Of a stretch of 64,000 nucleotides of DNA, positions 3,054-59,890 are shown in pieces (the first letter of the stretch is position 1; the number at the start of each line of letters is the position of its first letter). The stretch covers positions 1,433,001-1,497,000 of the forward strand of contig NZ_CP040813.1 in NCBI RefSeq assembly GCF_009498295.1, read 5' to 3'. The translations under genes were made by a program, and so were the position numbers. The stretch comes from Oceanihabitans sp. IOP_32. GTDB lineage: Bacteria; Bacteroidota; Bacteroidia; Flavobacteriales; Flavobacteriaceae. Below the pieces are notes generated by a model, which did no database searches, was not told the origin of the DNA, and saw nothing but the letters and a program-made list of their open reading frames with translations.

Positions 3054-3868
3054 AATTTATGGTATCAAAATTTTTATTGTAGCTTTCTCACGAACTTAAA
3101 ATTAGTGTTTTATAATAACATTATCAGTTCATCCAAATTTATCAATTTGTTTTTATATTCTTTTAAGGACACCCATTTTCTTTTAGCTTCAGGCACAAAT
3201 AGCGTTCTAAATTTTATAATAAGCAATTCCTAATTTAAGCATTTTTAAAATATTAATCGCCAATATATAACCGTTAACATCCTAGAATTAACAAATAGAA
3301 CTATTCGGGAACTAGACTCGAGCGTTTATAAAGTATGTGGTTTATTCTTATTACTTTTTTTATTTTGAAGGGACTGCTACATAAAAAGCATAGGCATGTT
3401 TAACGTTTAAAAAGAAATTATTTTCTGGCGCGTAATATTCTAATGCTAAGGCACAAATTTCAGCTCAACCTCCATGATTTAAGCAGTCTAAAACCGTAGC
3501 CTTAAGTGGTTATTTGTAAAGTAAAAATAATCAGCGCTGATTTGTTGCAACATTCTGCCCAATCGCATCGCTTTGCTTAGACTAACTCAAAACATTGGTT
3601 TTGAATACTTTAAATGTAAATTAAAACATTACGGCAACAAAATATTACTTATACATTTAACAAGGAAACGCGTTTTTTAGTTTTTAGTCGATATTTTGAA
3701 AAATACAGTTGTTTGTTGGAGTGTTGTTTTTTGAATTTTTGATGGCTCGTAGAACAATAAAAGCCCATAAATAGTAGTACTACTGCTGATGATTTTATGC
3801 TATTAAAAAACGAGATTGAAGAAGCCCCAAATCAACACTTTCTATAGCTTTTTAGCTTTATAAGTTAA
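3054..3868. other. Gene-free region containing repeat copy 1
   Basis: This 815-bp stretch separates the regulator start from the stop of the barrel-protein gene. Its right half is repeat copy 1 (3479-3808). The left half is AT-rich and holds no ORF I would defend; it should include the regulator's promoter. Confidence 0.6.
3479..3808. repeat. Dispersed repeat, copy 1 of 3 (about 330 bp)
   Basis: Reading the three copies side by side shows long runs shared with 7976-8195 and 9155-9418. Landmarks are CAGTCTAAAACC near the left edge, GCTGATTTGTTGCAACATTC in the middle, and TAGTAGTACTACTGCTGATG near the right edge (shared with copy 3 only). No long ORF and no clear terminal inverted repeat were found. 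Copies 1 and 2 are in the same orientation and bracket the TonB-like/GLPGLI cassette. Confidence 0.85.
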
Positions 3869-7975: not shown

Positions 7976-8195
7976 TTAAGCAGTCTAAAACCATAGCCTT
8001 AAGTGGTTATTTGTAAAGTAAAAATAATCAGCGCTGATTTGTTGCAACATTCTGCCCAATCCCATCACTCTGCCTAGACTAAAACAAAGCTCTGATTTTG
8101 AACACTTTAAATGTAAAAAAAAATATTAGGGCAGCAAAATATTTCTTATAAATTTTACAAGAAAACGTGTTTTTTTGTTTTTAATCGATATTTTT
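7976..8195. repeat. Dispersed repeat, copy 2 of 3 (about 220 bp)
   Basis: It matches the left two thirds of copy 1 in the same orientation, including CAGTCTAAAACC, AGTGGTTATTTGTAAAG and GCTGATTTGTTGCAAC. It loses similarity after about 8195, before the CTACTGCTGATG segment. It lies upstream of the small secreted peptide/GLPGLI cassette, so its 3' edge may contain that cassette's promoter. Confidence 0.85.
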
Positions 8196-8765: not shown

Positions 8766-9182
8766 TTAGCTTGTTGGTATTAATGAAGATGAATTTGTGG
8801 CTCTTCCACTATCTCCGCCTCCGAGTAAATTTGACAAAAATCTTAATTCACCATTGGTTATCGCATCTAAGATACTTTCACTTAAAGAACTGTAACCATT
8901 AGAAAACCAATTGCTTTTAGTTCTACCAACTTGATTGTTGAATAAATCCATTTGTTTTTCTTTAAAGTCATTTGCATAACTAGAAGGTTTATCTTCATGA
9001 GCAGCAGCCAAACTTGAAGCTAATGAGTCTCCAAGTAATATCACATTCAAGGCATTCCAGTAAGCGTGCCTGAAAGCATCTGCTCTACCATTATAAAGTG
9101 AATTTAGGAATAAATTTTCTGCTAGCCAAGTGGCTTTCTGAGCGTTAACCAAATAGCTGATTTGTTGCAACATTCTGCCCAA
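8766..9182 (-). CDS. DUF6973-like domain protein, 5'-truncated
   Basis: The reading frame gives about 138 residues with the conserved block NGRADAFRHAYWNALN (about 32-47), then AHED near 62 and QMDLFNNQVGR near 78. This is the His/Asp/Asn-rich pattern of a domain found at the C-terminus of Bacteroidota polymorphic-toxin and wall-associated proteins. No ATG opens the frame: the first codons (TTG at 9182) lie inside repeat copy 3, and an in-frame stop appears some 30 codons upstream. So this looks like the tail of a larger protein cut off by the repeat, or an orphan cassette. The biochemical activity of the domain is not known to me. Confidence 0.55.
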   Translation of the reverse strand: MGRMLQQISYLVNAQKATWLAENLFLNSLYNGRADAFRHAYWNALNVILLGDSLASSLAAAHEDKPSSYANDFKEKQMDLFNNQVGRTKSNWFSNGYSSLSESILDAITNGELRFLSNLLGGGDSGRATNSSSLIPTS

Positions 9183-9418
9183 TCCCGTCGCTCTGCCTAG
9201 ACTAAAACAAAGCCCTGGTTTTGAATACTTTAAATGTAAATTAAAACATTACGGCAACAAAATATTTCTTATACATTTAACATTAAAACGTGTTTTTTGG
9301 TTTTTAATCGATATTTTGAAAAAATACAGTTGTTTGTTGGAGTGTTGTTTTGTGAATTTTTGATGGCCTGTAGAACAATAAATAGTAGTACTACTGCTGA
9401 TGATTTTATGCTATTAAG
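9155..9418. repeat. Dispersed repeat, copy 3 of 3 (about 264 bp)
   Basis: It matches copy 1 from GCTGATTTGTTGCAACATTC to the CTACTGCTGATG segment, in the same orientation, but lacks the left 75 bp of copy 1. Its left edge runs straight into the DUF6973-like reading frame. A short plus-strand ORF inside it is not a gene. Confidence 0.85.
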
Positions 9419-33996: not shown

Positions 33997-34040
33997 ATTA
34001 TTAATTACTATAAAGCTACCATTTACAAAATGGATGCCAT

Positions 34041-34067
34041 AAAAAAAGCCCCACGACTTGTGAGGCT
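34041..34067 (-). terminator. Terminator downstream of the atpG-tail repeats
   Basis: AGCCCCAC at 34047-34054 pairs with GTGAGGCT at 34060-34067, with one mismatch; on the minus strand a T-run follows. It can end transcripts that read through the 52-bp repeats from atpG. Confidence 0.75.
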
Positions 34068-34126
34068 CCATATTGTATAACTGAAAATAAATTCAGTAGA
34101 AAATTATTTGTTTCACGCTACAACTT

Positions 34127-34594
34127 GATTGAAAATTTGACTCGCTCTGCGTCGTCTAATTGTTCAACGCCTCAGCTTGATTGAAAATTTGACTCGCTAC
34201 GCGTCGTCTAATTGTTCAACGCCTCCGATTGATTGAAAATTTGACTCGCTCTGCGTCGTCTAATTGTTCAACGCCTCAGCTTGATTGAAAATTTGACTCG
34301 CTCTGCGTCGTCTAATTGTTCAACGCCTCCGATTGATTGAAAATTTGACTCGCTCTGCGTCGTCTAATTGTTCAACGCTTCCGCTTGATTGAAAATTTGA
34401 CCCGCTCTGCTTCGTCTAATTGTTCAACGCCTCAGCTTGATTGAAAATTTGACTCGCTACGCGTCGTCTAATTGTTCAACGCTTCTGTTTGATTGAAAAT
34501 TTGACTCGCTCTGCGTCGTCTAATTGTTCAACGCCTCCGATTGATTGAAAATTTGACTCGCTCCGCGTCGTCTAATTGTTCAACGCTTCCGCAC
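34127..34594. repeat. Nine 52-bp tandem repeats copying the atpG 3' end
   Basis: Units start at 34127, 34179, 34231, 34283, 34335, 34387, 34439, 34491 and 34543, always 52 bp apart and differing at a few positions. The last unit overlaps the end of atpG: each copy contains, on the minus strand, GCGTTGAACAATTAG, the final codons and stop of atpG, plus about 30 bp of 3' sequence. There are no unique spacers, so it is not a CRISPR array. Confidence 0.95.
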
Positions 34595-35444
34595 CACCAA
34601 CAATTTCTAAAATTTCGTTGGTAATTGCGGCCTGACGCGCTTTATTATAGGTTAATTTAAGTTCGTCTCTTAAATCTGTGGCGTTATCGGTGGCCTTGTG
34701 CATGGCCGTCATACGTGCGCCATGTTCACTTGCAAAACTATCTCTAATCCCTTTATACAAAAGTATTTTTAAGGATTTCGGAATTAATTGCTCAACGATT
34801 TCATTTTTTGAAGGCTCAAAAATATATTCAGTTTCTTCAATGGCTATTTCATCATCTTTTACCTCAGGAACTGGTAGCGGTAAAAACTGCTCTGTCATCA
34901 CAATTTGGGTGGCCGCATTTTTAAATTTGTTGTAAACGATTTCAATTTTATCAAACTCGCCTTCAACAAATTTTTCCATCAGCATTTCGGCTATTTCTGA
35001 TACATTTTCAAACGTTAAATCATCAAAAACCCCACTTTTATTGGCAATTACACGCCCTGTTTTAGATAAGGCATCATTGGCTTTTTTACCAATCGCAAGA
35101 AAAGACACTTCTTGGTCTACGTAAGTTTCTGTTGTTAACTTACTAACTTGCTTTAATATATTCGAGTTAAAAGCACCACATAGGCCCCTATTAGAGGTAA
35201 TAGCTACAATTAAAACGTTTTTGACTTCTCTTTGCGCGGCAAATTTATTTTCGGTTTTAGCGTCTAAAGTAGCGCTAATTATTTCCAAAAGCTCAGTTAA
35301 CTTCTCAGCATAAGGACGCATTGCCGTAATAGCATCTTGCGCTTTCTTTAACTTAGCAGCAGACACCATTTTCATGGCACTTGTAATCTGCATCGTTGAA
35401 GACACGGATGATATTCTACTACGTATTTCTTTTAAGTTTGCCAT
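34572..35444 (-). CDS. atpG: ATP synthase gamma subunit
   Basis: The 290-residue F1 central-stalk subunit. The N-terminal helix (MANLKEIRSRISSVSSTMQITSAMKMVSAAKLKKAQ) and the C-terminal helix (MTAMHKATDNATDLRDELKLTYNKARQAAITNEILEIVGGAEAL) are the conserved parts that form the rotating shaft. It is last of the atp run on the minus strand. Its final codons are amplified in the downstream 52-bp repeats. A 142-bp gap separates it from atpA. Confidence 0.97.
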   Translation of the reverse strand: MANLKEIRSRISSVSSTMQITSAMKMVSAAKLKKAQDAITAMRPYAEKLTELLEIISATLDAKTENKFAAQREVKNVLIVAITSNRGLCGAFNSNILKQVSKLTTETYVDQEVSFLAIGKKANDALSKTGRVIANKSGVFDDLTFENVSEIAEMLMEKFVEGEFDKIEIVYNKFKNAATQIVMTEQFLPLPVPEVKDDEIAIEETEYIFEPSKNEIVEQLIPKSLKILLYKGIRDSFASEHGARMTAMHKATDNATDLRDELKLTYNKARQAAITNEILEIVGGAEALNN

Positions 35445-46261: not shown

Positions 46262-47317
46262 ATGTCTTCATTTTACAAACTCAGCATAAAAGATATAAAA
46301 CGAGAAACTAACAAGGCGATAAGCCTTAGTTTTAAAGTGCCAGAATCATTAAAAGACCAATTTACTTTTAAAGCTGGACAATATCTTACATTAAAAACCA
46401 TAATTAACGGCAAGGAAGTACGCCGCGATTATTCGCTGTGTTCATCGCCTAAAAGTGGTGTCTTAAAAGTGGCCATTAAAGCCGTTGAAGAGGGTCTCTT
46501 TTCAGCTTATGCAAACACGACTTTAAAAGCAGGAGACACCTTAGAAGTAGCTCCGCCAAGAGGTCGTTTTATTTTCGAACCTAACGATAAAACCACTAAA
46601 AATATAGAAGCCTTTGCTGCAGGAAGTGGGATAACCCCCATTTTAAGTATTATAAAATGTGCTTTAGAGGAAGAAGAACAGAGTAAAGTCATTCTGGTCT
46701 ATGGTAATAAAACACCCGAAGACACCATGTTTTTAGATGAACTTCTAGAGCTTCAGCGTGTCTATAAAGATCGGTTTTCAATTCAATTTGTATTTAGTCA
46801 AGTGGATGAGGACGATGCCATTTTTGGTCGTATAGAAAAAAGTACGGTAAATTTCGTAACTAAAAACAAGTATAAAAATATTGATGTTGATGCTTATTAC
46901 CTCTGTGGTCCTGAAGCGATGATTAATACCGTAAAATCGGTTTTAATTGAAAATAATATTGATGAAAACCGCATTCATTTTGAACTTTTTAAGACGTCTA
47001 AACCTGTTCAAATTGAAGAAAACGCCCCGTCTAGCGGAAAAACAAAAATTACTGTTGTGGTTGATGACGAATCCACCACTTTCGAAATGTCTTCTAAACA
47101 AACCATTCTTGAAGCAGCTTTAGACAAAGATATAGATGCGCCATACTCCTGCCAAGGTGGTATTTGTAGTAGCTGCCTAGCGCGAATAACTGAGGGGGAA
47201 GCAACTATGCGACAAAACAATATTTTAACCGAAAGTGAAGTTGCTGAAGGTTTAATTTTAACCTGTCAAGCAGAGCCAAAATCGGAGACTATTGTTGTCG
47301 ATTATGATGATGTTTAG
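46262..47317 (+). CDS. PaaE-like ferredoxin-NAD(P) reductase with 2Fe-2S domain
   Basis: A 351-residue flavoenzyme: an FAD domain (RRDYSLCSSP near 59-68), an NAD(P)-binding domain (AAGSGITPILSII near 119-131) and a C-terminal plant-type [2Fe-2S] domain with CQGGICSSC and a distant fourth Cys in LTCQAEP. It moves electrons from NAD(P)H through FAD and the cluster to an oxygenase or similar partner. Relatives include PaaE of phenylacetyl-CoA epoxidase, but no paa genes are nearby, so the partner is unknown. Array 1 begins about 25 bp after its stop. Confidence 0.9.
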   Translation: MSSFYKLSIKDIKRETNKAISLSFKVPESLKDQFTFKAGQYLTLKTIINGKEVRRDYSLCSSPKSGVLKVAIKAVEEGLFSAYANTTLKAGDTLEVAPPRGRFIFEPNDKTTKNIEAFAAGSGITPILSIIKCALEEEEQSKVILVYGNKTPEDTMFLDELLELQRVYKDRFSIQFVFSQVDEDDAIFGRIEKSTVNFVTKNKYKNIDVDAYYLCGPEAMINTVKSVLIENNIDENRIHFELFKTSKPVQIEENAPSSGKTKITVVVDDESTTFEMSSKQTILEAALDKDIDAPYSCQGGICSSCLARITEGEATMRQNNILTESEVAEGLILTCQAEPKSETIVVDYDDV

Positions 47318-48686
47318 GAATTGTGTAATAGTCCTTATAACGAAATAAACCGTCACTGCGAGGACGTAGGACGCGGCAGTCTTTCAATTTGAAACCGCCT
47401 TTTAAAAAATAATTCTATTCGAAAGATGACTTCCCTCGTGCCTCGCTCGTCATGACGTAATCCATTGTACTGCGCCCTTCATGACGTACAAAACCGTCAC
47501 TGCGAGGACGAAGGACGAAGCAGTCTTTCAATTTAAACCGCCTTTTAAAAACTAGTTCTATTCAAAAGATGACTTCGCTCGTGCCTCGCTCGTCATGACG
47601 TACAAAACCGTCACTGCGAGGACAAAGGACGAAGCAGTCTTTAAATTGAAACTCACTTTTAAAAAATAATTCTATTCAAAAGATGACTTCGTTCGTGCCT
47701 CGCTCGTCATGACGTACAAAACCGTCACTGCGAGGACGTAGGACGCGGCAGTCTTTTAATTGAAACCGCCTTTTAAAAACTAGTTCTATTCAAAAGATGA
47801 CTTCCCTCGTGCCTCGCTCGTCATGACGTAATCCATTGTGCCGCGCTCGTCATGACGCACAAAACCGTCACTGCGAGGACGCAGGACGCGGCAGTCTTTT
47901 AGTTGAAACTCACTTTTAAATACTAGTTCTATTCGAAAGATGACTTCCCTCGTGCCTCGCTCGTCATGACGTAATCCATTGTACTGCGCTCGTCATGACG
48001 TTATCAATTGTGCCGAGCTCGCCATGACGTACATAACCGTCACTGCGAGGACGAAGGACGCGGCAGTCTTTAAATTGAAACTGCATTTTAAACTTAATTC
48101 TATTCAAAAGATGACTTCCCTCGTGCCTCGCTCGTCATGACGTAATCCATTGTACTGAGCTCGTCATGACGTAATCCATTGTACTGCGCTCGTTATGACG
48201 CACATAACCGTCACTGCGAGGACGCAGGACGAAGCAGTCTTTAAATTTGAAACTGCCTTTTAAAAACTAGTTCTATTCAAAAGATGACTTCGCTCGTGCC
48301 TCGCTCGTCATGACGTAATCCATTGTACTGAGCTCGTCATGACGCATAAAACCGTCACTGCGAGGACGTAGGACGCGGCAGTCTTTTAGTTGAAACTCAC
48401 TTTTAAAAACTAGTTCTATCCGAAAGATGACTTCCCTCGTGCCGCACTCGTCATGACGTACAAAACCGTCACTGCGAGGACGCAGAACGAAGCAGTCTTT
48501 TAATTGAAACCGCCTTTTAAAAACTAATTCTATTCAAAAGATGACTTCGCTCGTGCCTCGCTCGTCATGACGTACAAAACCGTCACTGCGAGGACGTAGG
48601 ACGCGGCAGTCTTTTAATTGAAACCGCCTTTTAAAAACTAGTTCTATTCAAAAGATGACTTCCCTCGTGCCTCGCTCGTCATGACG

Positions 48687-48986
48687 TTAATCAAAATAAA
48701 AAAGCCAACCATCAGATAAATCGTCCCAATTAGGATTTTGGACATTAATTAGATCTTCTTTGCGTTTTCTATTCCCAGACTTTAATATTTTTTCTCTTGA
48801 TATCGCTTGTTTAATATCGTTAAATTCTTCATAATAAACCAGTTTATCACAGTTATATCTGTGTGTAAATCCTTTTCTAATTTTAGCTTTATGTTCGTAA
48901 ACCCTTTTTAGTAAATTAGAGGTTACACCAATATAAACTACTGAATTATTTTTATTTGTCAAGAAGTAAACATAGGACTTTTGCAT
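48687..48986 (-). CDS. GIY-YIG endonuclease-domain protein, copy 1
   Basis: A 99-residue single-domain protein of the GIY-YIG/URI superfamily: YVYFLTN and YIGVTSNLLKRVYEH give the catalytic Tyr and Arg/His positions, and REKILKSG carries the catalytic Glu. It would make a nick or cut in DNA using one metal ion. It is embedded in array 1, and its TAA stop is followed at once by the arm CGTCATGACGAGC of a repeat unit. It is nearly identical to copy 2 (one residue, Val/Ile), so both were duplicated recently. Confidence 0.9.
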   Translation of the reverse strand: MQKSYVYFLTNKNNSVVYIGVTSNLLKRVYEHKAKIRKGFTHRYNCDKLVYYEEFNDIKQAISREKILKSGNRKRKEDLINVQNPNWDDLSDGWLFYFD

Positions 48987-51101
48987 ATTTAAAAATACAC
49001 ATTTTTATCTTCATGGTGAATGTTGAGGGGAAATGACGAAATAACCCGTCACTGCGAGGACGCAGGACGCGGCAGTCTTTCAATTTGAAACCGCCTTTTA
49101 AAAACTAGTTCTATTCAAAAGATGACTTCGCTCGTGCCTCGCTCGTCATGACTCTATCCATTGTGACGCACTGACCATGACGCACAAACCCGTCACTGCG
49201 AGGACGTAGGACGCGGCAGTCTTTTAATTGAAACTCACTTTTAAAAACTAATTCTATCCGAAAGATGACTTCGCTCGTGCCTCGCTCGTCATGACGTAAT
49301 CCATTGTACTGAGCTCGTCATGACGCATAAAACCGTCACTGCGAGGACGTAGGACGAAGCAGTCTTTAAATTTGAAACTGCATTTTAAAAACTAGTTCTA
49401 TTCAAAAGATGACTTCCCTCGTGCCTCGCTCGTCATGACGTAATCCATTGTACTGCGCCCTTCATGACGTAATCCATTGTGCCGAGCTCGTCATGACGCA
49501 TAAAACCGTCACTGCGAGGACGTAGGACGCGGCAGTCTTTTAATTTAAACCGCCTTTTAAAAACTAGTTCTATTCAAAAGATGACTTCGCTCGTGCCTCG
49601 CTCGTCATGACGTAATCCATTGTACTGAGCTCGTCATGACGCATAAAACCGTCACTGCGAGGACGTAGGACGAAGCAGTCTTTAAATTTGAAACTGCATT
49701 TTAAAAACTAGTTCTATTCAAAAGATGACTTCCCTCGTGCCTCGCTCGTCATGACGTAATCCATTGTACTGCGCTCGTCATGACGTAATCCATTGTGCCG
49801 AGCTCGTCATGACGCATAAAACCGTCACTGCGAGGACGTAGGACGCGGCAGTCTTTTAATTTAAACCGCCTTTTAAAAACTAGTTCTATTCAAAAGATGA
49901 CTTCGCTCGTGCCTCGCTCGTCATGACGTAATCCATTGTACTGCGCCCTTCATGACGTACAAAACCGTCACTGCGAGGACAAAGGACGAAGCAGTCTTTA
50001 AATTGAAACCGCCTTTTAAAAACTAGTTCTATTCAAAAGATGACTTCCCTCGTGCCTCGCTCGTCATGACGTAATCCATTGTACTGCGCTCGTCATGACG
50101 TAATCCATTGTGCCGAGCTCGTCATGACGCATAAAACCGTCACTGCGAGGACAAAGGACGAAGCAGTCTTTCAATTTAAACCGCCTTTTAAAAACTAATT
50201 CTATTCAAAAGATGACTTCCCTCGTGCCTCGCTCGTCATGACGTTATCAATTGTGCTGCGCTCTTCATGACACACAAAACAGTCATTGCGAGGACGTAGG
50301 ACGACGCAGTCTTTTAATTGAAACCACCTTTTAAAAAATAATTCTATTCAAAAGATGACTTCCCTCGTGCTTCGCTCGTCATGACGTAATCCATTGTACT
50401 GCGCTCGTCATGACGCACAAAACCGTCACTGCGAGGACAAAGGACGAAGCAGTCTTTAAATTGAAACCGCCTTTTAAAAAATAATTCTATTCAAAAGATG
50501 ACTTCCCTCGTGCCTCGCTCGTCATGACGTAATCCATTGTACTGCGCTCGTCATGACGTACAAAACCGTCACTGCTAGGACAAAGGACGAAGCAGTCTTT
50601 TAATTGAAACCGCCTTTTAAAAAATAATTCTATTCGAAAGATGACTTCCCTCGTGCCTCGCTCGTCATGACGTAATCCATTGTACTGCGCTCTTCATAAC
50701 GAAATAACCCGTCACTGCGAGGACGCAGGACGCGGCAGTCTTTCAATTTAAACCGCCTTTTAAAAAATAATTCTATTCGAAAGATGACTTCCCTCGTGCC
50801 TCGCTCGTCATGACGTAATCCATTGTACTGAGCTAGTGATGACGAAATAACCCGTCACTGCTAGGACAAAGGACGAAGCAGTCTTTTAATTGAAACCGCC
50901 TTTTAAAAAATAATTCTATTCGAAAGATGACTTCGCTCGTGCCTCGCTCGTCATGACGTAATCCATTGCACTGCGCTGGCAATGACGCACATAACCGTCA
51001 CTGCGAGGACAAAGGACGAAGCAGTCTTTTAATTGAAACCACCTTTTAAAAACTAGTTCTATTCGAAAGATGACTTCCCTCGTGCCTCGCTCGTCATGAC
51101 G

Positions 51102-51401
51102 TTAATCAAAATAAAAGAGCCAACCATCAGATAAATCGTCCCAATTAGGATTTTGGATATTAATTAGATCTTCTTTGCGTTTTCTATTCCCAGACTTTAA
51201 TATTTTTTCTCTTGATATCGCTTGTTTAATATCGTTAAATTCTTCATAATAAACCAGTTTATCACAGTTATATCTGTGTGTAAATCCTTTTCTAATTTTA
51301 GCTTTATGTTCGTAAACCCTTTTTAGTAAATTAGAGGTTACACCAATATAAACTACTGAATTATTTTTATTTGTCAAGAAGTAAACATAGGACTTTTGCA
51401 T
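51102..51401 (-). CDS. GIY-YIG endonuclease-domain protein, copy 2
   Basis: A 99-residue near-duplicate of copy 1, 2,415 bp away in the same orientation. From about 40 bp before the ATG to the stop I count about three base differences, only one changing a residue (Ile for Val). All GIY-YIG motif residues are intact. The stop again abuts a repeat arm. The gene and flanks were evidently copied together with neighbouring repeat units. Confidence 0.9.
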   Translation of the reverse strand: MQKSYVYFLTNKNNSVVYIGVTSNLLKRVYEHKAKIRKGFTHRYNCDKLVYYEEFNDIKQAISREKILKSGNRKRKEDLINIQNPNWDDLSDGWLFYFD

Positions 51402-51799
51402 ATTTAAAAATACACATTTTTATTTTCATGGTGAATGTTGAGGGGAAATGACGAAATAACCCGTCACTGCGAGGACGCAGAACGAAGCAGTCTTTTAATT
51501 GAAACTACATTTTAAAAACTAGTTCTATTCAAAAGATGACTTCCCTCGTGCCTCGCTCGTCATGACGTAATCCATTGTGCCTCGATCGTGATGACGAAAT
51601 AACCCGTCACTGCGAGGACAAAGGACGAAGCAGTCTTTTAATTTGAAACCGCCTTTTAAAAAATAATTCTATTCGAAAGATGACTTCGCTCGTGCCTCGC
51701 TCGTCATGACCTAATCCACTGTACTGCGCTCTTCATGACGTTATCCATTGTGGCACGCTGGCCATACCGAACAGGACTCTTACTGAACGCCTAATACTG

Positions 51800-57330: not shown

Positions 57331-59890
57331 CGTCATGGCGAGGAAGCATGACGACGCCATCTTTTGATTGAAAGGGCAAGTAAAACCATGAGATTCTTCG
57401 CTACGCTCTGAATGACAGGCTGCTCTGAATGATAGGGTAGGTTGATTGACGGCACACCATAACAACCCGTCATGGCGAGGAAGCATGACAACGCCATCTT
57501 TCCATTAAAACGACAAGTAAAACCATGAGATTCTTCACTGTGCTCTGAATGACAGGCTGCTATGAACAAGATAACACCGCAAAAATCCGTCATGGCGAGG
57601 AGGTACGACGAAGCAATCTTTCCATTAAAACGACAAGTAAAATCATGAGATTCTTCCCTGGGCTCTGAATGACAGGCTGCTATGAACAACATAACACCGC
57701 AAAAATCCGTCATTGCGAGGAGGTACGACGACGCCATCTTTTCAATAAAAACAGCAAGTAAAACCGTGAGATTCTTCGCTGTGCTCTGAATGACAGGATT
57801 CGTTATAAACAACTACACACAGTGGTGTTCCGTCATGGCGAGGAAGCATGACGAAGCCATCTTTTGATTGAAAAGGCAAGTAAAAATCATGAGATTCTTC
57901 GCTGTGCTCTGAATGACAGGCTGCTTTGAATAATCCACGTCTGTCATTCAGAAGGAGGAACGACTGAAGAATCTTTTATATCTCTTCATCTAAAAACAAC
58001 CATGATGGATTGACATTTGAAACCAAATTTTCTTTTTTTGATCTGCTCCACCCCTTAATTTGTTTTTCTCTTTTAATAGCATCTTCAATGTGAAAGAAAT
58101 GTTCGTAGTAAATTAAATAGTAGCATTTATATTTTGTTGTAAATGCTTTAGAAAAAGGAAGTGGATTTTTATGAAAATACAATCGGTCTTTTAAGTTATT
58201 TGTGACGCCCGTGTAAAGTACCGTTTTATTTTTATTGGTAAGTATATAAACATAATATTTATGTGATGTTTTTCGTTTCATCTAACTAAAATAAATAAAT
58301 ATATGATTTGTTTTTTAGATTCTTCGCTGCGCTCTGAATGACAGAATTCGCTGAATTACAGGCTGCTTTGAATGACAGGGTTGGTTGATTGACGGCACAC
58401 CATAACAATACGTCATGGCGAGAAAGCATGACGACGCCATCTTTTGATTGAAAACAGCAAGTAAAACCATGAGATTCTTCGCTGGGCTCTGAATGACAGA
58501 CTTCGTTATAAACAACTACACACATTGGTGTTCCGTCATGGCGAGGAAGCATGACGAAGCCATCTTTTGATTAAAAGGACAGATAGAATCATGAGATTCT
58601 TCGCTTTGCTCTGAATGACAGGCTGCTATGAATGACAGGGTAGGTTGATTGACGGCACACCATAACAATACGTCATGGCGAGGAAGCATGACAACGCCAT
58701 CTTTTGATTGAAAGGGCAAGTAAAACCATGAGATTCTTCGCTGTGCTCTGAATGACAGGCTTCGCTTTGAATAATCCACGTCTGTCATTCAGAAGGAGGA
58801 ACGACTGAAGAATCTTTATAATGGGTTATGCTAAGCTTATAGAGAAAGAGATTCTTCGCTTTGCTCTGAATGACAGAATTCGCTGAATTACAGGCTGCTT
58901 TGAATGACAGGGTAGGTTGATTGACGGCACACCATAACAACCCGTCATAGCGAGGAGGTACGACGACGCCATCTTTTGATTAAAAGGGCAAGTAAAAACC
59001 ATGAGATTCTTCGCTGCGCTCTGAATGACAGAATTCGCTGAATTACAGGCTGCTTTGAATGACAGGGTAGGTTTATTGACGGCACACCATAACAATACGT
59101 CATGGCGAGAAAGCATGACGACGCCATCTTTTGATTGAAAACAGCAAGTAAAACCATGAGATTATTCGCTGTACTCTGAATGACAGGCTGCTATGAACAA
59201 GATAACACCGCAAAAATCCGTCATGGCGAGGAAGCATGACGACGCCATCTTTCCAATGAAAACTACAAGTAAAACCATGAGATTCTGCGCTGTGATCTGA
59301 ATGACAGGCTGCTCTGAATGACAGGCTGCTTTGAATAATCCACGTCTGTCATTCAGAAGGAGGAACGACTGAAGAATCTTTATAATGGATTATGCTAAGT
59401 TTATAGAGAAAGAGATTCTTCGCTATGCTCTGAATGACAGGCTGCTATGAATGACAGGGTAGGTTGATTGACGGCACACCATAACAATACGTCATGGCGA
59501 GGAAGCATGACAACGCCATCTTTTGATTGAAAGGGCAAGTAAAACCATGAGATTCTTCGCTGTGCTCTGAATGACAGGCTTCGCTTTGAATAATCCACGT
59601 CTGTCATTCAGAAGGAGGAACGACTGAAGAATCTTTATAATGGGTTATGCTAAGTTTATAGAGAAAGAGATTCTTCGCTGCGCTCTGAATGACAGGCTGC
59701 TTTGAATGACAGGGTAGGTTTATTGACAGCACACCATAATAACCCGTCATGGCGAGGAAGCATGACGAAGCCATCTTTTGATTAAAAGGGCAAGTAAAAC
59801 CGTGAGATTCTTCGCTGTGCTCTGAATGACAGACTGATCTGAATGACAGGCTGCTCTGAATGACAGGCTTCGCTGGATAACAGGCTGCAC
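57331..59890. repeat. Array 2: palindromic repeats with one GIY-YIG gene
   Basis: Two word families alternate. One begins CGTCATGGCGAGGAAGC (or a variant), with 13 copies. The other is AGATTCTTCGCTGTGCTC followed by TGAATGACAGG, together with its inverted partner TGTCATTCAGAAGGAGGAAC ... GAAGAATCTTT (near 57940, 58780, 59345 and 59600). Links such as GGCACACCATAACAA recur. The many short minus-strand frames here translate to repeated SEESHGFT- or QSAAKNL-type strings and are not genes. Confidence 0.95.
57976..58281 (-). CDS. GIY-YIG endonuclease-domain protein, divergent copy
   Basis: A 101-residue single-domain GIY-YIG protein: YYVYILTN and YTGVTNNLKDRLYFH at the front, REKQIKGW with the catalytic Glu later. 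It is clearly related to but far from the pair in array 1. It lies inside array 2: the TAA stop is followed directly by the arm AAGATTCTTCAGTC, and the opposite arm AGATTCTTCGCTGCGC begins about 35 bp upstream of the ATG. So it sits between two facing repeat arms. Confidence 0.9.
   Translation of the reverse strand: MKRKTSHKYYVYILTNKNKTVLYTGVTNNLKDRLYFHKNPLPFSKAFTTKYKCYYLIYYEHFFHIEDAIKREKQIKGWSRSKKENLVSNVNPSWLFLDEEI

Follow-up and report, generated by a model that had tools for sequence, protein, structure and literature searches.

The tandem units described here are best read as pairs of tagged hairpins, 5'-[C/T]GTC-hairpin-TC[C/T]...GA-hairpin-GAC[G/A]-3', that carry a cognate stand-alone GIY-YIG endonuclease. 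With a probability of roughly 0.6, we regard this nuclease as the REP-associated enzyme of the CGTC/TGTC superfamily, which would cut and mobilise its repeats. The assignment is made because gene and REPs are linked across phyla and co-diversify, because the gene is under selection, and because sites with and without the unit exist.

Array 2 and its gene-bearing unit

The window, i.e., the whole stretch of 64,000 nt analysed, corresponds to G000:C1:1433001-1497000 and lies within a 3.48-Mb single-contig genome, which, judged by its genes, apparently belongs to a flavobacterium-like Bacteroidota. Its array 2 is flanked by purD and a sugar-transferase gene (names by ORF inspection). The following features are referred to throughout.

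57331..59831, + strand, one orientation throughout: array 2, 17 tandem head-to-head REP pairs (pattern scan)
57942..57976, + strand: left arm of the gene-bearing unit, a TGTC-tagged REP of type B, identical to three other copies
57976..58281, - strand: stand-alone GIY-YIG nuclease gene, 101 aa (Pfam PF01541, E 1.7e-16; catalytic residues intact)
58317..58343, + strand: right arm of the gene-bearing unit, TGTC tag on the reverse complement (pattern scan)
58783..58875, + strand: gene-less type-B unit with 31-bp spacer
59347..59439, + strand: gene-less type-B unit with 31-bp spacer
59602..59694, + strand: gene-less type-B unit with 31-bp spacer
48687..48986, - strand: 99-aa GIY-YIG gene, second in the window; it interrupts an inter-unit REP of array 1
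51102..51401, - strand: 99-aa GIY-YIG gene, third in the window, nearly identical to the second and with the same junctions

In each unit of array 2, a spacer separates a left from a right arm. Thirteen units have a left arm of type A (CGTCATGGCGAGG...GCCATCTTT, related to type B) and four have one of type B, whose 35 nt are 100% identical in all four copies (starts at 57942, 58783, 59347, and 59602). The right arm (27 nt) is a single sequence, AGATTCTTCGCTGTGCTCTGAATGACA, with at most two mismatches across the array; in the type-B units it starts at 58317, 58849, 59413, and 59668. Complementarity between left and right arm is partial: it covers 11 outer and 9 inner bases, and the middles differ.

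A first-pass annotation had reported the same facing arms with and without the nuclease, one pair bracketing the gene and three enclosing about 30 bp. Base-level comparison bears this out, with four identical 35-nt left arms and one 27-nt right arm. The interior of one type-B unit measures 340 bp and includes the GIY-YIG gene, and the other three enclose 31 bp, ATAATGGRTTATGCTAAGYTTATAGAGAAAG. Four exact 35-mers with a common partner arm cannot be chance. The gene occupies exactly the spacer position of the sister units, its stop codon starting in the final base of the left arm. Arms and outer context are common to gene-bearing and gene-less copies: the 23 nt upstream equal those of the unit at 59347, and the downstream sequence resembles, with few differences, that of the unit with its right arm at 58849.

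The annotation had further interpreted these loci as autonomous and deleted forms of one element, the short units being internally shortened copies. Arms and outer context match as such a relationship predicts, and the pairing of units with and without a gene recurs elsewhere, yet the 31-bp spacer resembles neither the gene nor its flanks. As a gene remnant it was rejected, 299 of 500 shuffles aligning to the gene region equally well. A search for the spacer version elsewhere in the genome, which the annotation had advised, revealed about 23 near-identical gene-less copies (at least 75 nt, at least 92% identity) against one copy of the array-2 gene. They lie in five islands around 1.491, 1.514, 1.532, 2.191, and 2.445 Mb, and more diverged copies occur elsewhere. 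Since the spacer aligns no better than shuffles and gene-less copies abound in islands, internal deletion is unsupported in the window. In other genomes, too, gene-less pairs enclose spacers unrelated to the gene. A literal internal-deletion series does hold at one locus (L040) of the relative G019, where one of three tandem units has the full gene and two have the same internal deletion of about 146 bp. The cleanest description is one type of unit whose interior is either spacer or gene. The "terminal inverted repeats" of the annotation are better described as two CGTC-tagged REP hairpins arranged head to head.

With the 94-nt unit as query, 193 matches were obtained in the own genome, to which the type-B pair of the window is nearly private. 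The window contains other repeats as well, namely a tandem array of about a dozen copies of a 52-bp repeat (34001-34695) and three dispersed 219-nt repeats of 73-89% identity (3479-3697, 7976-8194, and 9099-9317).

Correspondence of the arms to CGTC/TGTC-tagged REPs

Prokaryotic REPs are divided into a GTAG-tagged superfamily, accompanied by RAYT transposases, and a CGTC/TGTC-tagged superfamily (Di Nocera et al. 2013, PMC3733652). Members of the latter carry a TGTC tag in many cases, have A-T first stem pairs and form head-to-head dimers; Neisseria dRS3 and Rickettsia RPE-4/RPE-6 belong to them (Di Nocera et al. 2013, PMC3733652). They "apparently lack a dedicated transposase", and no tyrosine transposase flanked by CGTC REPs was found (Di Nocera et al. 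2013, PMC3733652). REPs are intergenic and mostly located downstream of coding regions (PMC3733652).

The arms of the window start with TGTC or CGTC. Flanking inverted arms of many sequences were found at 77 small GIY-YIG genes of relatives from the same order, and most high-scoring ones open outward with GTC(A), followed by a palindrome. An A stands directly after GTC in 114 of 135 arms. At least 7 of 8 stem bases are paired in 47% of these 135 arms, compared with 3% when halves are swapped, and 26 different stems occur. Stem sequences thus vary widely while keeping their internal pairing (covariation). Many copies and head-to-head dimers are seen in the 193 matches of the own genome and in the dimers of other genomes. 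Judged by sequence, the arms appear to fit the description of CGTC/TGTC-tagged REPs in head-to-head pairs. Compared with the 8-9 bp stem and CCA tail of the superfamily, stems in the window are shorter, pairing only ATTC/GAAT at the stem base, and the tail is CT(TT); CCA is found in most proteobacterial arms.

Small GIY-YIG genes and their products

The window holds two further genes of this kind in array 1 (47194-51747, about 24 units of another CGTC REP pair). Both sit at the same position of the inter-unit REP, between GTTAATC and AATGACG. The catalytic Tyr, Tyr, Arg, Glu, and Asn of the GIY-YIG domain are present, and the active-site residues are invariant. The small genes are under purifying selection, as dN/dS amounts to 0.05-0.13 (gene pairs with estimable dS). 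For an AlphaFold model of the 101-aa protein (pLDDT 92), the nearest folds are those of UPF0213 BH0048, of Slx1, which is a structure-specific nuclease, and of the nuclease domain of UvrC. This predicted likeness fits, but does not prove, an action on branched or hairpin DNA.

Some loci deserve separate mention. One small GIY-YIG gene of the same genome (G000:C1:2476062-2476331) is situated amid apparent trp operon genes, and the hairpins flanking it have no GTC tag (TTTTTCACTCCCTCGAAGGAGGGAATC). Another (G000:C1:847291) adjoins an apparent tRNA gene; downstream, the end of the tRNA and the start of the GIY-YIG gene are partially duplicated. In G006, where a GIY-YIG pseudogene (C11:2652-2918) has six stops, one exact REP pattern is still present in 15 copies, which gives the impression that the REPs have outlasted their gene.

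Linkage of gene and REPs across genomes

Linkage was assessed with two definitions of arms. When hairpins were defined strictly, with 6/6 or 7/8 paired stem positions, outward pairs stood on both sides of 6 of 72 GIY-YIG genes and of none of 334 control ORFs. This definition misses most Bacteroidota arms, and a motif-blind test was therefore applied there. An inverted-pair score of at least 15 was reached by 28 of 72 small GIY-YIG genes vs 6 of the 334 ORFs (OR 35, p 4e-18; like all linkage p-values given here, this one ignores phylogenetic non-independence). The 334 ORFs belong to 20-kb segments drawn from 20 of the genomes with tested GIY-YIG genes; same-genome ORFs served as control because random cross-locus pairing is distorted by the consensus common to the arms. 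At a cut-off of 14, the ratio is 34 of 72 GIY-YIG genes vs 2 of 61 short control ORFs.

For the tag test, 80 named genomes were picked by protein similarity only. In 67 of the 80 loci, an outward GTCA-tagged hairpin lies within 250 bp of the gene. Outward tags on both sides were observed in 36 loci for GTCA and in none for GTAG, GTAG hairpins near the genes being limited to two outward and five inward loci. The other tags tried gave lower counts than GTCA, mostly far lower. The density of tagged REPs is 0.635 per 100 bp at the gene vs approximately 0.025 beyond 700 bp, i.e., about 25-fold greater beside the gene than 1 kb off.

Pairs around the gene were identified in 40 of 79 named genomes. 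High-scoring ones are dispersed over Alpha-, Beta- and Deltaproteobacteria, Nitrospirae, Omnitrophota, and Bacteroidetes, and a lower-scoring one surrounds the gene in the gammaproteobacterium Kangiella. Among the genera are Azospirillum, Novosphingobium, Sphingobium, Shinella, Rhizobium, Sinorhizobium, Neisseria, and Spirosoma; further cases are located on plasmids, among them Neisseria with its dRS3-like arms. About half of the small GIY-YIG genes, however, have no recognisable straddling pair, which counts against the preferred reading; decay is a possible cause.

Between genomes, the more similar the proteins, the more similar the arms (Mantel r 0.32 in Bacteroidota and 0.41 overall, 0 of 5000 permutations), and genes within one genome have arms no more alike than background. 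In these sequence comparisons, arms go with the gene clade rather than the genome, and gene and REP pair co-diversify. Within one bacterial family (145 genomes), an exact REP occurs in 19 of 27 gene-positive vs 18 of 118 gene-negative genomes (OR 13, p 4e-8, ancestry ignored). One REP type was detected in 9 of 60 relatives, all nine of which have a small GIY-YIG gene (p 0.002, ancestry ignored). Against the preferred reading, 18 of the 37 REP-bearing genomes of the family are without a detectable gene, some of them with 20-48 REP copies.

Presence and absence of units at defined sites

Units are gained or lost at defined sites. Azospirillum lipoferum 4B reveals the order REP-REP-gene-REP-REP between sufB and sufC, and the unit is absent in three species compared at this site, which are approximately 94-95% identical there. 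The fnrL site of Sphingobium occurs in three states, depending on the strain: REP-gene-REP, a single symmetric REP, or none. In TomTYG74 and TomTYG64, a lone palindrome with tags at both ends (CGTC...GACG) occupies the position of the REP-gene-REP of sister strains; it may represent the scar of an excision or an ancestral target. In Shinella, the unit is present in some genomes and absent in others. The genome of an Undibacterium (G060) contains the gene unit and gene-less pairs with the same arms in unrelated places and with unrelated spacers. A supposed empty site in Sinorhizobium K101 turned out to be a 5'-truncated gene and was rejected.

No target-site duplication is visible at the Azospirillum, Sphingobium and Shinella sites, where intergenic DNA is too diverged for base-exact reading. 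For the same reason, base-exact insertion boundaries were not obtained in Azospirillum and Shinella, which counts against the preferred reading.

Proposed mechanism and alternative explanations

The nuclease would recognise tag and hairpin, either single-stranded or as a cruciform, and would nick or cut DNA at the tagged hairpin. Repair or re-integration could then insert a copy of the gene into a different REP or pair of REPs, in a homing-like manner and with the arms as homology. Alternatively, these processes may spread gene-less pairs as non-autonomous elements, comparable to the role proposed for RAYT transposases with GTAG REPs.

Similar patterns might arise if another agent spread the REPs and a free-standing GIY-YIG homing endonuclease parasitised them, using REP halves as homology arms. 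The array 1 genes, which interrupt a REP between GTTAATC and AATGACG, are what such a parasite would leave, as are the lone Sphingobium REP at a site of REP-gene-REP in other strains and the window gene, which stands in place of a spacer between unaltered arms and in the same outer context; genomes rich in REPs but lacking the gene, and weak profile matches to GIY-YIG homing endonucleases, point the same way. The gene, however, mostly lies between two complete matched REPs and not within one, the arms track the gene clade, and G002 has only the two arms of the gene unit plus one gene-less pair of this same REP, as if the unit had brought the REPs. We consider this explanation unlikely, albeit one to be taken seriously. 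The model of the first-pass annotation, an autonomous inverted-repeat transposon with internally deleted MITE-like copies, accounts for arms common to units with and without the gene and for the real deletion series in G019. We judge it improbable: spacers in the window and in gene-less pairs elsewhere are unrelated to the gene, the sole gene of the unit is GIY-YIG with neither a DDE nor an HUH transposase, short copies other than those of G019 L040 are not internal deletions, and no target duplication was seen at the sites compared, where intergenic DNA is diverged.

REPs might also collect passively around any gene that is small, of recent acquisition or weakly expressed, in line with their intergenic location, mostly downstream of coding regions (PMC3733652). 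The low yield of short control ORFs (2 of 61, against 34 of 72 GIY-YIG genes at the same cut-off), the REP peak centred on the gene and the co-diversification of arms and gene make this very improbable. Hardly any weight remains for a scheme in which RAYT (Y1/HUH) transposases move the REPs, with the GIY-YIG gene as a bystander. Two Y1_Tnp genes do exist in the own genome, but one has no tagged pair, and the other, a RAYT-like gene at G000:C1:818794, is flanked by a strong inverted pair (CCCCCGCTAGCGCGAGCGTCACGCTCGTGCC) that bears no relation to the arrays; on this ground it was rejected as mover of the array REPs. Moreover, no tyrosine transposase flanked by CGTC REPs was found by Di Nocera et al. 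(PMC3733652).

Relation to known systems

The preferred reading, a nuclease dedicated to CGTC/TGTC-tagged REPs, places the units beside several known systems. With the CGTC-tagged superfamily they have in common the C/TGTC tag and the head-to-head pairs, and apparently the A-T first stem pair, the hairpin and a short tail; the superfamily was reported without an enzyme, whereas here many pair types hold a matching GIY-YIG gene in some copies. Like GTAG REPs/REPINs and RAYTs, they combine high-copy hairpin pairs with a single-domain nuclease gene in the same hairpins, and arms co-vary with the enzyme. In contrast to that system, neither a GTAG tag nor an HUH Y1 transposase is found inside the pairs, the tag being different and the GIY-YIG fold unrelated. 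Free-standing GIY-YIG homing endonucleases (phage seg-type, intron I-TevI type) are alike in catalytic domain and in possible copying into a gene-less target, but the proteins described here have approximately 95 aa, no separate DNA-binding domain, and palindromic repeats at their flanks. The small proteins of UPF0213/COG2827 (BH0048, YhbQ) correspond in size and fold and are the closest solved structures.

In open-access papers, with preprints and subscription papers outside the scope, we found no report of a link between GIY-YIG genes and REPs, and priority cannot be claimed. REPs with a dedicated nuclease are a known kind of system; the enzyme fold differs here. Non-coding repeats of the CGTC REP type are widespread in bacteria, and their mechanism of spreading has been open since at least 2013. 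Our findings suggest that one of the commonest bacterial palindromic repeat families has its long-missing partner in this nuclease. The wider proposition, for which we see about even chances, is that stand-alone GIY-YIG nucleases of about 95 aa recognise and disperse tagged hairpins as a widespread class of mobile elements, and would be both the missing enzyme of CGTC REPs and a non-homologous counterpart of the RAYT/REPIN system. With a candidate enzyme of approximately 100 aa and a defined cognate DNA, the question becomes directly testable. If true, two unrelated nuclease folds would have evolved the same lifestyle with tagged DNA hairpins.
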